From: Oscillibacter valericigenes
Lineage (GTDB): Bacteria; Bacillota; Clostridia; Oscillospirales; Oscillospiraceae
DNA length: 64,000 bases
Reading direction: 5' to 3'
Assembly (NCBI RefSeq): GCF_016902445.1
Contig: NZ_JACSNX010000008.1
Coordinates: forward strand, 1-64,000
In this document: piece by piece, positions 11,816 through 16,429 of the stretch
How the letters are laid out: each line of letters begins with the position of its first letter
Position numbering within the stretch: the first letter of the stretch is position 1
The notes under the pieces: model-generated
Database searches by the model: none
What the model saw: the letters and a program-made list of their open reading frames with translations, nothing else
What the model was told of the DNA's origin: nothing
Made by a program: the position numbers and the translations under genes

Positions 11816-12092
11816 GAGATCTCTCCACTTCCTCAAATTTCATTAGCCATAGTATTATATCGGAGAGACTTGGATTTGTAAAGAAAAATGCGTAAAAAAA
11901 CGGAAAATCCCCGTCTGCCCCCGGTATTTCACAGGCGGACCTGCGGCCTGGCGGAAGCCGGGGCGGAAATTTTATGGAGCGATGGCGAAAAGTTCATAAT
12001 TTGTTCATGATTGCCGGGCGCTTTCCCGCTATGTTACACGTAGAGAGATAGAAGCTGGAAACTACTTTTTGGAATATGGTGGAGGAAACAAG

Positions 12093-15026
12093 ATGAAAGG
12101 ATTCTGGAAGAAAAAGCTCCCGGCGTGTCTGCTGTCGCTGGCACTGCTGATGGGGACGGTGCCCATGGCGTCGGCCGCGTGGGCGGATCTGACGTATGAT
12201 GTGGACGAGGACGATTATGTTTTTATCGGAGCGGATGATTTCGAAGATCTCTTTGACGAGGAATGGGATGGCTGGGATTCTTTCGAATATCTGGAGTTCC
12301 GAAACATTGATGATTTTGACGATTATGGGTATTTCACCGCAGAAGACGGCGATGGCTACAATGCACAGTTAGACAGTGATGACCTGTATGACGGCATCTT
12401 CTACAGCAATGGCCGGGATGCCGAAGACTGGGATGAATATGACCTGGATACGCTCTATTTTGAAACCTACGACAACATAGACAGCGATACGATCTACATC
12501 GATTTTACGCTCTACGGGTATGACGAAGATGTGGATGGCACCATGTGTATCGATATCGCCGGCGGTTATGGCAACTCTGGTGATGTGGAGCTGACCTACT
12601 ATGTGGACCCCGACGATGATGTGGAACTGGATGCCGATGACTTCTGGGACCTGTTCGACGAGGAGTCCCGGGAGGATTTTGAATATCTGGAATTCTACAG
12701 CTACGATGACTTTGACGACTACGGCTATTTCGAGGCAGAGGACGCGGACGGCGACTGGGTGCAGCTGTACGATTCCACGCTGGATGACGGCTACTACTAT
12801 TACAATTGGTATGACACCAGCTCCAGCTACGACTACGCGCTGGACCGTATGACGTTCTGTGCGGACAAGAACGCCGACGAGGACACGCTGGAGTTCCCCT
12901 TCACCATGTACGGCGACGACAACGACGAAGTGGACGGCACCCTCTACATCGAGATCGGCGAGGGCACCGGCACCAGCTCCAAGGCGGACTTCGTCTACCA
13001 GGTGGACCCGGACGACGATGTGACGCTGGATGCCGAGGACTTCTACGACTTTTTCTACGATGAGTCCGACTATGACGAGCTGGAGTACATCGAGTTCACC
13101 GGCTATGATGATTTCGACGACTACGGCTGGTTCGGCGCCGACGGATACGACTACGATGATTATGTCCGGGACTATGAGCTGAACGACAGCGATCTGGACG
13201 ACGGCTACTTCTACTACGACGAGGACGACGTGTGGGACGACTATGAGTTCGAGCTGGACACCCTCACCTTCCACGCCGACCGGAACGCCGACGAGGACAC
13301 CCTGACCTTCGACATCACCATGCACGGCATCAAAGGCGACAAGATCGACGCCACCCTCGCCATCGAGATCGGCGAGGGCACCACGTCCAGCGCCACCAAG
13401 GTGGACGGCGACATCATCTACGAGGTGGATCCGGACGATACCGTGACCTTTGACCGGGATGACTTCTGGGAGTTCCTGGACGACGAGACCGGCGAGGATC
13501 TGGAGTATGTGCGCTTCACCGACGCCACCGGTCTGGACGACTGGGGCGAGCTGTACAGCTATGACTACAACGATGACCGGGTGTACTTCGACGAGGGCGA
13601 CCTGGACGACGGCTACTTCTACTATGACAGCAAGGACCTGTACTATGACGACGACTGCACCCTGGATGACCTGACCTTCCTCTCCTATGATGACGCCGAC
13701 GGCGAGGTGGTGTATCTGGACTTCACCGCCTACGGCCGGGATGACGACGCCAAGGGCACCGTGGCCATCGCCATCGGCGATGTGGGCGGTGTGACCGCCG
13801 AGGGCGGCGACATCCGCTATTACACCGACTACAGCGGCCGGGTGCAGATCAACGCCAACGACATCGCCCGGTTCTTTGAGGAGAGCTATCCCGGCTACAC
13901 CCTCCAGTATGTGACGCTGAAGGGGGCGCCGGACTACGGCAGCCTCTACTACAACTACTACGGCACCAGTGAGTACGGCACCTCCTACAGCATGCGCATC
14001 ACGGCGGACAACTGCGACGACATGGATCTCTACTTCAGCCCGTCCAGCAGCCAGTACGCCCTCAGCGAGCTGACCTACGTGCCCAGCGGCGTCAACTACT
14101 GCGCCCAGATCCCCTTCACCGCCTACGGCACCGGCAGCCGGTCCGTGTCCGGCACCATCCTCATCAGCGTGAACCTCAGCGAGGTGCCTGATGTCTACGG
14201 CCCCACCCCCAAGAATACGGCCGTCACCTTCCCGGCTGCCTCCATCTACACGGCGGTGTCCCAGGCCAGCGGGCTGGGCCTGTCCAGCATCCAGCTGCTG
14301 GAGCTGCCTGCCGCCAATGAGGGGACCATTTACGTGGGCAGCGGCACCTCCCAGCGGGCCGACACCTCCACCCTGTACGGCTACTCCAGCGGCAGCCAGC
14401 GGATCAGCCAGCTGCGGTTCGTGCCGGCCACCGGCTTCACCGGCTCTGTGGAGATCCCCTACGTGGCCTGCAACAGCAGCGGCACGCCCATTGCCAGCGG
14501 CAAGCTGTGTCTGGGCGTGGTGGAGGAGATGGAGGACTTCTCCGACATCAGCTCTTCCACCTGGTGCTACAAGTACGTGCTGGAGCTCAGCGACGCCGAC
14601 GTGATCGACGGCTACAGCGACGGCACCTTCAAGCCCGACAACCAGGTGACCTACGGCGCCGCCCTGAAGCTCATCATGCTGGCCGCCGGCTATACCGAGC
14701 AGGCGCCGGTGAATTCCAACGTGTTCAGCGGCTATCTGGCCCGGGCCCAGGCGGACGGCCTGGTCTCCGGCAGCGTGGACCTGGATGCGCCCATCACCCG
14801 GCTGGCGGTGAGCCAGATCGCCGCCAAGGCCATGGGGCTGAGCATCAACAACCTGTCCAGCGTCCGGCCCTTTACCGACACCAGCGACCCCTATGTCCAG
14901 GCCCTGAATGCCGCGGGCATCGTGGAGGGCTACTTCGACAACGGCACCAGCACCTTCAAGCCCTACAACACCCTGACCCGGGGCCAGATCTCCGCCATCG
15001 TCTGGCGGATGGAGCAGTACCAGTAA
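12093..15026 (+). CDS. Very acidic repeat surface protein with C-terminal SLH domains
   Basis: The 977-residue secreted protein has a signal peptide (KKK then a hydrophobic core ending near MASAA, about residue 29). Six tandem units of roughly 125-140 residues follow, beginning near bases 12190, 12586, 12988, 13411, 13807 and 14175. Units 1-4 are extraordinarily rich in Asp, Glu and Tyr (DDFDDYGYF, VDPDDDV, LDDGYFYY recur). Units 5-6 are less acidic and Ser/Tyr-rich. The last 170 residues are S-layer-homology repeats (DVIDGYSDGTFKPDNQVT, GYFDNGTSTFKPYNTLTRG) that would bind pyruvylated wall polymers. GGAGG precedes the ATG at 12093. Function is unknown; adhesion or cation binding are guesses. 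Unit 1 uses more AT-rich codons than later units. Confidence 0.85.
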   Translation: MKGFWKKKLPACLLSLALLMGTVPMASAAWADLTYDVDEDDYVFIGADDFEDLFDEEWDGWDSFEYLEFRNIDDFDDYGYFTAEDGDGYNAQLDSDDLYDGIFYSNGRDAEDWDEYDLDTLYFETYDNIDSDTIYIDFTLYGYDEDVDGTMCIDIAGGYGNSGDVELTYYVDPDDDVELDADDFWDLFDEESREDFEYLEFYSYDDFDDYGYFEAEDADGDWVQLYDSTLDDGYYYYNWYDTSSSYDYALDRMTFCADKNADEDTLEFPFTMYGDDNDEVDGTLYIEIGEGTGTSSKADFVYQVDPDDDVTLDAEDFYDFFYDESDYDELEYIEFTGYDDFDDYGWFGADGYDYDDYVRDYELNDSDLDDGYFYYDEDDVWDDYEFELDTLTFHADRNADEDTLTFDITMHGIKGDKIDATLAIEIGEGTTSSATKVDGDIIYEVDPDDTVTFDRDDFWEFLDDETGEDLEYVRFTDATGLDDWGELYSYDYNDDRVYFDEGDLDDGYFYYDSKDLYYDDDCTLDDLTFLSYDDADGEVVYLDFTAYGRDDDAKGTVAIAIGDVGGVTAEGGDIRYYTDYSGRVQINANDIARFFEESYPGYTLQYVTLKGAPDYGSLYYNYYGTSEYGTSYSMRITADNCDDMDLYFSPSSSQYALSELTYVPSGVNYCAQIPFTAYGTGSRSVSGTILISVNLSEVPDVYGPTPKNTAVTFPAASIYTAVSQASGLGLSSIQLLELPAANEGTIYVGSGTSQRADTSTLYGYSSGSQRISQLRFVPATGFTGSVEIPYVACNSSGTPIASGKLCLGVVEEMEDFSDISSSTWCYKYVLELSDADVIDGYSDGTFKPDNQVTYGAALKLIMLAAGYTEQAPVNSNVFSGYLARAQADGLVSGSVDLDAPITRLAVSQIAAKAMGLSINNLSSVRPFTDTSDPYVQALNAAGIVEGYFDNGTSTFKPYNTLTRGQISAIVWRMEQYQ
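12185..14520 (+). repeat. Six tandem degenerate protein-coding repeats
   Basis: Each unit follows the same plan: an opening beta-strand plus VDPDDDV, an ADDF(W/Y)D helix start, an EYLEF strand, a YDDFDDYGYF segment, LDDGYFYY, LDxLTF with NADEDT, and a closing GTLYIEIGEG strand. Spacing is about 370-425 bases. Divergence increases towards the C-terminal units. Confidence 0.8.
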
Positions 15027-15035
15027 ACCGAAAAA

Positions 15036-15067
15036 AACAGCGGACCGCCGAGGCGGCCCGCTGTTTT
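15036..15067 (+). terminator. Terminator after the SLH protein gene
   Basis: ACAGCGG-ACCGCC pairs with GGCGGC-CCGCTGT around a short loop with one A/C mismatch, followed by TTTTT and preceded by an A-run. It can serve both strands. Confidence 0.8.
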
Positions 15068-15087
15068 TCTGCAGGGAGAGAGGAGCA

Positions 15088-15939
15088 TTATTTCAGCAGC
15101 GCGCTGTATACGTCCCGGGGAATGGTGAATTCCACCATGCCCATGTAGCCGGCGGCCACGGTGTACTCGTCGAATACCAGGACCAGGTCGCCGTCCGCAT
15201 TCCAGTAGAAGCTCTGCTCCGGGTCGATGGCGGTGAATTCGTCCGTCAGATAGCTCAGGGACGCGTCTGCGGCCATCTGTTCCTCCATCTGGCGCAGGAC
15301 CTCCGCGGACAGGACGGAGACATAGTCCGCGCCGGGCCGGAACAGATCGCCAAGAGTGACGATCTCGCCGGTGGCCTTGTCGATGTGGTAGAATCGGGTG
15401 AGATCATAGCCGCTGGCCTTGACCTTGGTGGCATCGATCCGCAGGGTGAACCAGGTGTCGCTGTCCGTCACCACAGAGGAGGTGATGTCCAGACCCTGGT
15501 AGCCCTCGCCCGTGGCCTCGCAGTCCGCCTGGAACTGGGCGATCAGCTGGTCGGTAAAGGCCTGCACCTGGTCGTTGACCTCGTCGGCGGCGTCGCTGCC
15601 GCCCAGCTCGGGGACGTGGACGTCGGCGGTGTTGTGGCCGTCGTCATACTGGTAATCCCGGAAGGTGACGACCCGCACCACAGCGCCCAGCACCGGGATG
15701 TCGCTCATGGCGGCCGCCGCCGAGGGCGAGACGTTGGGAATGGCTACGAATACGGCCAGAGCCGCGGCCACGCCCAGCAGGGCACGGCAGGAACGTTTCT
15801 GTTTGGTATCTTTCATAGTGGTCTCCTTTAACGCGGCGCAGGTGTTCCGCACCTTTCCGGCATACGTCTCCGGCAGGGGGAAGGGCTCCTGCTTCGCCCG
15901 CTCTTTCAGTCGCTTGTCGAATGGCTCCACCTTGCGCAC
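15088..15939 (-). CDS. RsiV-like membrane anti-sigma factor (DUF3298)
   Basis: The 283-residue protein has a charged cytoplasmic N-terminus (about 1-48), one membrane helix (about 50-66), and an extracellular region with the DUF4163/DUF3298 pattern (FYHIDKATGEIVTLGDLF, DEYTVAAGYMGMVEFTIP). This is the architecture of RsiV, which holds its ECF sigma factor at the membrane until a signal (lysozyme for Bacillus RsiV) triggers proteolysis. It starts with GTG at 15939, one base after the stop of the adjacent sigma gene, so the two are translationally coupled. The ligand in this organism is unknown. Confidence 0.8.
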   Translation of the reverse strand: MRKVEPFDKRLKERAKQEPFPLPETYAGKVRNTCAALKETTMKDTKQKRSCRALLGVAAALAVFVAIPNVSPSAAAAMSDIPVLGAVVRVVTFRDYQYDDGHNTADVHVPELGGSDAADEVNDQVQAFTDQLIAQFQADCEATGEGYQGLDITSSVVTDSDTWFTLRIDATKVKASGYDLTRFYHIDKATGEIVTLGDLFRPGADYVSVLSAEVLRQMEEQMAADASLSYLTDEFTAIDPEQSFYWNADGDLVLVFDEYTVAAGYMGMVEFTIPRDVYSALLK

Positions 15940-15940
15940 C

Positions 15941-16429
15941 TCATTCTTCGTGTAATAGTTGCTTCAGCCGGGATCGTCCCCGGGAGAGACGGGTCTTCAC
16001 CGCCGCCTCGCTGATGCCCAGGACGGCGCTGATCTCCCGGATGGACAGGTCCTCATAGTAAAACAGGGTCACGACCGCCCGCAGGTCGCAGTTCAGCGCC
16101 ATGACCGCCTGCCACAGGGACAGACGCTCCGTCTGGTCCGCCGCCGGGGCCGGCAGGAAGTCCTGGACGTCCGCCAGGTCCACCGTGGTCCGCCGCTTTC
16201 GGCAGAACTCGTAGCATTTGTTGACCAGGATCTTCAGGATCCAGGGGCGGAACCGCGCCGGGTCCCGCAGGCTGCCGCGGCTTGCATAGGCGGCGCAGAT
16301 GGCCTCCTGCACGGCGTCCTCCGCATCTTCGTCCTGGCGGAGGATGGACTTGGCGGTGCGGAACATGGCCTCCTGATTCCGGATCACCTGATCGCAGAAT
16401 GTTTCCTTGTCCAACGGAAAATTTGTCAT
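15941..16429 (-). CDS. ECF-type RNA polymerase sigma factor, SigV-like
   Basis: The 162-residue protein has only sigma regions 2 and 4. Region 2 runs from about residue 15 to 75 (FRTAKSILRQDEDAEDAVQEA, core-binding and -10 recognition). Region 4 runs from about 105 to 158 (DLSIREISAVLGISEAAVKTRLSRG, the -35 helix-turn-helix). It is cotranscribed with the RsiV-like anti-sigma gene immediately downstream, giving a typical signal-responsive pair, perhaps for cell-wall stress. AAAGGAG lies about 14 bases before the ATG. Confidence 0.88.
   Translation of the reverse strand: MTNFPLDKETFCDQVIRNQEAMFRTAKSILRQDEDAEDAVQEAICAAYASRGSLRDPARFRPWILKILVNKCYEFCRKRRTTVDLADVQDFLPAPAADQTERLSLWQAVMALNCDLRAVVTLFYYEDLSIREISAVLGISEAAVKTRLSRGRSRLKQLLHEE

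Follow-up and report, generated by a model that had tools for sequence, protein, structure and literature searches.

The window analysed here is the whole 64,000-nucleotide stretch of Oscillibacter valericigenes contig NZ_JACSNX010000008.1 (positions 1–64,000), and the gene under study is an open reading frame (ORF) at 12093–15026 on its plus strand that encodes a protein of 977 residues (ATG at 12093, stop at 15024–15026, with an in-frame TTG upstream at 12069). The protein consists of a signal-peptide-like start, six tandem units of 113–138 residues and an S-layer homology (SLH) region. The four outer units are hyperacidic, and this charge is restricted to surface positions over a hydrophobic core that is kept throughout a family of stalk proteins recurring across the genus. 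The features of the gene are as follows, with GC3 denoting the GC content at third codon positions.

12081–12085, plus strand: Shine–Dalgarno-like GGAGG, 7 bases before the ATG, read from the sequence.
12093–12179, plus strand: signal-peptide-like N terminus, residues 1–29, with KKK, a hydrophobic stretch and ASAA, from the translation.
12180–12581, plus strand: unit 1, predicted hyperacidic Ig-like bead, residues 30–163, AT-richer (GC3 0.55).
12582–12992, plus strand: unit 2, predicted hyperacidic Ig-like bead, residues 164–300.
12993–13406, plus strand: unit 3, predicted hyperacidic Ig-like bead, residues 301–438, included in the two-bead model.
13407–13805, plus strand: unit 4, predicted hyperacidic Ig-like bead, residues 439–571, included in the two-bead model.
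13806–14186, plus strand: unit 5, near-neutral conserved wall-proximal bead, residues 572–698, net −5 per 100 residues.
14187–14525, plus strand: unit 6, near-neutral conserved wall-proximal bead, residues 699–811, net +1 per 100 residues.
14526–15023, plus strand: SLH anchor, residues 812–977, with PF00395 stretches at 14538–14663 and 14889–14987.
15037–15068, plus strand: hairpin followed by a T run, a likely terminator, found by eye.

The signal-peptide call was made by eye, and similar N-terminal starts occur in the orthologues. By profile, unit 1 begins at residue 32 and is preceded by no N-terminal head. Units 2–6 are 53, 44, 36, 24 and 10% identical to unit 1, respectively. A sequence-only reading of the stretch had described four of the six units as dominated by Asp, Glu and Tyr, and the counts bear this out: units 1–4 contain 45, 46, 48 and 44 Asp and Glu residues (D+E) and 2, 4, 5 and 6 Lys and Arg residues (K+R), and Asp, Glu and Tyr together make up 44–46% of each, while units 5 and 6 are ordinary (D+E of 13 and 6). 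The very low isoelectric point (pI) that it had predicted was likewise reproduced, the mature protein computing to a pI of 4.05, which is the floor of that calculator. Among the 31 SLH ORFs examined in the genome, the protein holds the most acidic 120-residue segment (−36.7 net charges per 100 residues), and this rank argues that its acidity is not due to chance. A second hyperacidic SLH protein is encoded elsewhere in the genome (G000 contig 25, L185:3139–6126); it belongs to an S-layer-like family of other architecture with an N-terminal SLH region, its most acidic 120-residue segment carries −28.3 per 100, and paralogues in L083–L085 reach −13 to −21. All 41 genomes searched (own included) contain homologues of this second protein, and those of L197 and L202 are also very acidic. 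A comparison of the best S-layer-like homologue in each genome with the stalk protein, made for whole-surface acidification, gave rho 0.44 (p = 0.055, 20 genomes; of 30 loci, two were too short and a further eight lacked a paired value) and rho 0.17 (p = 0.51, 17 genomes) once the clade of the window protein was removed.

Searches of the whole protein against Pfam and NCBIfam returned just the SLH domain, an SLH-region match far below its cut-off and a sub-threshold CshA_repeat match, with no repeat family. The Protein Data Bank (PDB) yielded SLH matches and others at chance level (FimH, an endoglucanase) by sequence, and three unconvincing matches by repeat profile (best E 0.016, a kinase). 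The structure prediction proposed in the sequence-only reading for a single unit was run on units 3 and 4 together, using AlphaFold2 with 70 aligned two-bead stretches (that of the window protein and 69 of 91 listed stretches). The resulting model is confident, with a mean predicted local distance difference test score (pLDDT) of 91.7 and a predicted template-modelling score (pTM) of 0.57, and each bead is a β-sandwich with a helix after the second strand. The Foldseek matches of this model include Ig receptors as well as cadherins and the Ig-like domains of PrgB; E-values for the last two run from 1.7e-5 (PrgB) to 1e-3, and TM-scores are low because two beads were searched together. Generic β-sandwich neighbours were also found. 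Two of seven relatives scanned, L080 (31.6 bits) and L081 (33.1 bits), passed the Cadherin_5 (PF17892) cut-off of 26.5 with a match spanning model positions 61–97 of 98, that is, the last third of that model only. These are distant relatives from the same genus with a Ser/Thr-rich form of the repeat; the other five relatives fell below the cut-off and the window protein gave no match. Among the matches listed for the 70 two-bead rows (25 of 38 families), Cadherin_5 was absent and Cadherin_3 appeared weakly in two. Taken together, the two-bead model, the Foldseek matches and the Cadherin_5 passes in L080 and L081 indicate that the unit is, by model, an Ig-like or cadherin-like β-sandwich bead.

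Two other assignments were rejected. The Pfam matches of the 70 two-bead rows were scattered over 38 families, the commonest of which, hGDE_N, occurred in 6 of 70 rows with a best E of 3.5e-5, and were taken as chance. An alignment to peptidylarginine deiminase by VIA-align reached a Z-score of up to 7.5 with a root-mean-square deviation of ~15 over two beads and was attributed to a common β-sandwich arrangement, which is all that a Z-score below 8 may mean. The full-length model (mean pLDDT 73.1, pTM 0.37, 10 sequences) contains six β-rich beads and a helical SLH region. The linkers joining units 1–5 mostly fall below a pLDDT of 50 (8 of 11, 9 of 10, 12 of 13 and 9 of 11 residues), and the linker between units 5 and 6 lies outside such stretches. 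Over their 45 residues, the linkers between units 1–5 are 58% Gly, Ser and Thr and 16% D+E.

The search of other genomes that the sequence-only reading had suggested gave matches to the repeat region in 30 of 36 other genomes of the genus (Oscillibacter/Dysosmobacter) and in a single genome among 23 from the order's remaining families. In a wider draw from the order, 17 of 247 genomes (own included) from 12 of 134 genera carried the repeat. A scan of named genomes identified at least 69 loci from the best 80 candidate stretches, 68 of which are labelled Oscillibacter, Dysosmobacter, Oscillospiraceae or Clostridia. L144, on a contig labelled as a Spirochaetaceae metagenome-assembled genome, has an SLH end 85% identical to that of the window protein and is probably a mis-binned Oscillibacter-type contig. 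The own genome holds no second gene with the repeat at E 0.1. Three genomes carry two family members each (L106/L108, L113/L135 and L130/L149), one headed and one headless in every case.

The profile detected 4–9 units per protein (413 units in 68 proteins), and an N-terminal head precedes the first unit in 44 of 67 proteins. Cys/His-rich CxxC-type repeats occur in seven of the eight heads inspected (head set L101, L104, L112, L122, L124, L131 and L140), and one of four heads scanned passes a Listeria–Bacteroides repeat model. The seven most acidic proteins lack a head, and the mean net charge per 100 residues is −15.7 for headless proteins (n = 23, including L129, which starts at a contig end) and −6.3 for headed ones (n = 44). 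Head loss as a driver of acidity was set aside, because the five independent pairs on well-supported branches leave a sign test unable to reach significance.

Net charge is distributed unevenly along these proteins. The penultimate units (n = 68) average +0.8 net charges per 100 residues (sd 2.9) and the last detected units (n = 68) +0.6 (sd 2.4), with a range of −8.8 to +5.9 for the last two units of all 68 proteins, whereas the distal units (n = 277) average −8.5 (sd 9.5) and range from −40.3 to +6.7. To locate the charge within the bead, alignment columns were classed as core, surface or glycine by the residues held in the 136 neutral units, and these units were compared with the 18 distal units of the acidic clade (the window protein and L086–L089). 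D+E accounted for 1.7% of residues at the 37 core columns in the acidic clade versus 1.4% in the neutral units, 49.9% versus 16.6% at the 79 surface columns, and 31% versus 2.0% at the four glycine columns. At the surface columns, K+R fell to 5.8% from the 13.4% of neutral units, and Ser, Thr and Asn to 16.9% from 39.4%. Over the 277 distal units, D+E and Ser+Thr are inversely related (rho −0.70), in part because both share columns. The lineages partly agree on which surface columns turn acidic (Spearman 0.16–0.68 in 15 comparisons); shared ancestry, exchange and common exposure are all possible reasons for this agreement. These comparisons suggest that acidity is a graded property of the distal units, produced by supercharging of the surface over a conserved core.

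The SLH anchoring noted in the sequence-only reading was confirmed by a PF00395 match of 64.3 bits (cut-off 20.8) in two Pfam stretches. The genome also encodes a CsaB-type pyruvyltransferase that narrowly passes TIGR03609 (223.2 bits, cut-off 213.1), as do 4 of 14 control genomes; CsaB makes the SLH ligand in known systems. The SLH region, the signal-peptide-like N terminus and the CsaB-type gene together support a wall-anchored surface protein of acidic repeats, which would be expressed and displayed on the cell. In Bacillus anthracis and Paenibacillus alvei, SLH domains retain wall proteins through secondary wall polysaccharide, as described in excerpts of PMC12175726.

A tree of the C-terminal regions was built from 67 of 70 proteins, leaving out L144, L150 and L153 because of their short C-terminal matches, and 18 of its 64 inner forks are open. 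The five rows of the window clade (−25 to −31 per 100) form one supported group. L098 (−27.9) adjoins L104 (−3.9), and L091 (−19.3), L095 (−16.5), L094 (−17.9), L108 (−18.4) and L140 (−15.5) are located elsewhere on the tree. Approximately unbiased (AU) tests, in groups picked after the tree was seen, rejected a grouping in which the window clade is joined by L098 (p = 2e-6) or by L091/L095 (p = 0.0016), and the fewest state changes on the tree are six for a threshold below −20 (10 rows) or nine for one below −15 (15 rows). The distal units themselves look shuffled between species. Unit 2 of the window protein is 84% identical to its nearest match, unit 2 of L086, and 61% identical to unit 2 of the sister L087, which is closer to unit 3 of the window protein (75%). 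Units 3–4 of L091 and L095 are 83–87% identical, with differing best matches for unit 1; unit 4 of L098 is 74–75% identical to unit 4 of L090, and L098 has units that are for the most part similar to those found in other headless proteins. The units of L140 resemble those of headed L092, L122, L103 and L133, and the units of headless L108 resemble those of headed L113, L130 and L112. Given the post-hoc groups, the open forks and the apparent exchange of distal units, the AU tests do not prove independent origins of acidic units; repeated acidification appears likely, with the number of origins not settled. We therefore offer only tentatively, at slightly less than an even chance, the fuller scenario in which distal beads on more than one occasion changed from a Ser/Thr-rich to an Asp-rich surface over an unchanged core and acidic beads were exchanged between species while the wall-proximal beads were held near-neutral.

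Comparison of the window gene with L087 gave ratios of nonsynonymous to synonymous change (dN/dS) of 0.30 for the distal units, 0.19 for units 5–6 and 0.23 for the SLH region, and dN of 0.206 for the distal units versus 0.054 for the base; for unit 1 alone, synonymous sites are saturated. The distal dN/dS of 0.30 indicates that the coding sequence is under purifying selection, and distal-region values range from 0.13 to 0.36 in six species pairs. In one of these six, the L135/L149 pair, the base is faster than the distal units, unlike in the window clade.

The first unit is AT-richer than the others, as the sequence-only reading had observed (GC 0.45, GC3 0.55; GC3 of 0.81–0.95 in units 2–6). 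A foreign first unit, which had been suggested from this composition, was rejected because the GC3 drop recurs in orthologues: GC3 of unit 1 lies at least 0.07 below that of unit 2 in 9 of the 14 genes looked at, mostly acidic ones, with no drop in L094, L140 and L104 and a drop of 0.01 in L093. The unit is nevertheless distinct. It is the most divergent unit relative to the sister species and at most 52–53% identical to any unit compared. Since it is 45–52% identical to the first units of L086–L089, which are 65–73% identical among themselves (five comparisons shown), it appears to have been replaced or to be fast-evolving.

The gene is located between a divergent gene, which we take from its sequence to be prfB, and a converging pair on the minus strand (15088–16429) that encodes a DUF3298 protein, presumably RsiV-like, and an ECF sigma factor. 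This pair also adjoins the gene in L087 and L088; in L086, the interval from the gene to prfC contains no match to either member. A prfB reading frame lies within 1300 bases in 37 of the 69 loci. Of the 32 loci without a prfB match, nine have fewer than 1300 bases upstream on the stored stretch and 18 have more than 3000, so that the linkage is common but not general. No sigma-70-type promoter match was found upstream on the plus strand, and a terminator scan returned just a short minus-strand site (15050–15038), where ~1.3 such sites are expected by chance. A 318-residue antisense ORF within the acidic units (12369–13325, minus strand) mirrors the Asp/Tyr-rich coding strand on inspection and is not a likely gene.

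What these findings describe is a stalk of an ordinary SLH-anchored, Ig-like type, found across the genus and here taken to an extreme, and not a new fold or system. We propose, as an explanation with an even chance of being correct, that the outer Ig-like beads of this wall-anchored stalk have been surface-supercharged into a hydrated polyanionic coat acting by general electrostatics. The exported stalk would carry six Ig-like β-sandwich beads on mostly flexible linkers and be held in the cell wall by its SLH region. Units 5 and 6 together with that region would form a conserved near-neutral base on the inside, from which the polyanionic beads would project outward. The four outer beads would keep the family hydrophobic core while solvent-facing Ser, Thr, Asn, Gly, Lys and Arg residues were exchanged for Asp and Glu at many positions. 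Rather than through one specific binding site, the coat would most likely act by keeping cells soluble and apart, repelling or soaking up cationic host molecules, and loosely holding divalent cations. Several observations weigh against this explanation. Neither a recognised adhesive head domain in the protein nor a partner gene naming a function was found. Of the five records in the acidic clade, three carry poultry-type names, but L097, which is labelled as chicken, is near-neutral, so that a poultry-specific trait was not supported and no host pressure was identified. Finally, columns 44 and 45 are fixed as Asp in 18 of 18 acidic units, which a purely diffuse role does not require.

The fixed columns also favour the main rival, a calcium-loaded stalk whose beads would be folded or stiffened by Ca2+ bound in Asp-rich loops, on the model of Gram-negative RTX extenders; we consider this rather unlikely, although it accounts for several features. 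The acidic units have an Asp-to-Glu ratio of 3:1, and in units 3–4 Asp resides mainly in loops and short helices (fractions of 0.37 and 0.44, respectively, versus 0.11 in strands). Among seven calcium-type spacing patterns, one loose EF-like spacing shows mild enrichment, with 22 occurrences where 14.8 are expected, a count reached by 18 of 500 shuffles. However, three patterns are near expectation (3 observed for each versus 1.9, 2.3 and 3.1 expected) and three are absent with at most one expected. The Asp preference is already present in the neutral units (0.70 of D+E), and because near-neutral relatives share the core without the Asp residues, the fold itself should not need Ca2+. The RTX extenders MhLap, AhLap and MpIBP are likewise tandem β-sandwich repeats that are rich in Asp and Glu and poor in Lys and Arg, and they hold Ca2+ in their short linkers, according to excerpts of PMC7493085. 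In the window protein, the corresponding linkers of units 1–5 are of the Gly/Ser/Thr-rich type described above and not acidic, no RTX pattern occurs in the 18 acidic units, and the stalk is wall-anchored rather than part of a Gram-negative adhesin. The calcium-dependent adhesin raised in the sequence-only reading is not borne out by these linkers and patterns.

Alternatively, the acidic face of the beads could recognise one particular basic ligand, for instance a cationic protein of the host or a surface protein that serves as partner. The fast change of the distal units, the signs of unit shuffling and the headless state of the seven most acidic forms would fit beads that have assumed such a binding role, but the charge is spread across many surface columns without a single site and neither Pfam nor NCBIfam contains a matching adhesive domain, which makes a specific adhesin or receptor improbable. 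Neutral drift or compositional bias, in which codon or GC bias, or relaxed constraint, would produce an acidity without a role, is very improbable: although the distal units outpace the base in the window clade and GC3 declines toward the 5′ end, units 4 and 1 are similarly acidic despite GC3 values of 0.87 and 0.55, respectively, the core is untouched while surface K+R is also replaced, the whole distal region is constrained in all six species pairs, and the wall-proximal beads of the same proteins are near-neutral.

The proposed polyanionic stalk has recognisable counterparts among known systems. SbsB and Sap share its SLH anchoring and beads-on-a-string body, and both appear among the Foldseek matches of the full-length model (4aq1 at rank 24 and 9g93 at rank 35), behind ciliary, cadherin and titin chains; an SLH-anchored architecture of Ig-like beads is described in excerpts of PMC12175726. 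The window protein differs in its C-terminal SLH region and its far more extreme charge, and PDB relatives by sequence exist for its SLH part only. Cadherin_5 is matched by L080 and L081, SLH proteins of the same genus that carry this repeat, but not by the window protein itself. Periscope proteins and fibrillar adhesins are likewise wall-anchored tandem-domain stalks with varying unit number. The repeats of Periscope proteins are highly identical within a gene in the excerpted text of PMC9210967, in contrast to the divergent units found here, and the words charge, acidic and electrostatic are absent from the main text of the Periscope papers searched. Compared with fibrillar adhesins, the window protein has no distal adhesive domain in Pfam, and its CshA repeat (PF19076) match is weak and partial (36 residues, 12.6 bits, cut-off 27). 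The earlier view that no characterised family has this composition holds for Pfam repeat models, but gives way to the modelled Ig-like or cadherin-like fold, the Cadherin_5 passes of its relatives and its likeness to RTX extenders. A literature search found no title or abstract describing this Oscillibacter stalk protein.

To our knowledge, very acidic proteins have been discussed mostly for halophiles or as calcium-loaded adhesins. The point of interest here is the position-restricted and probably repeated supercharging of one bead, whose net charge per 100 residues varies among close relatives between near-neutral values and about −40 while its core stays constant. Natural rather than engineered variants would thereby allow the outer polyanionic coat of a gut bacterium to be studied directly, with charge repulsion, resistance to cationic peptides, cation binding and the replacement by Asp of Ser and Thr residues that possibly bear glycans as candidate effects. 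If the supercharging is indeed repeated and exchangeable, the family would represent a natural series for the effect of surface charge on the cell.

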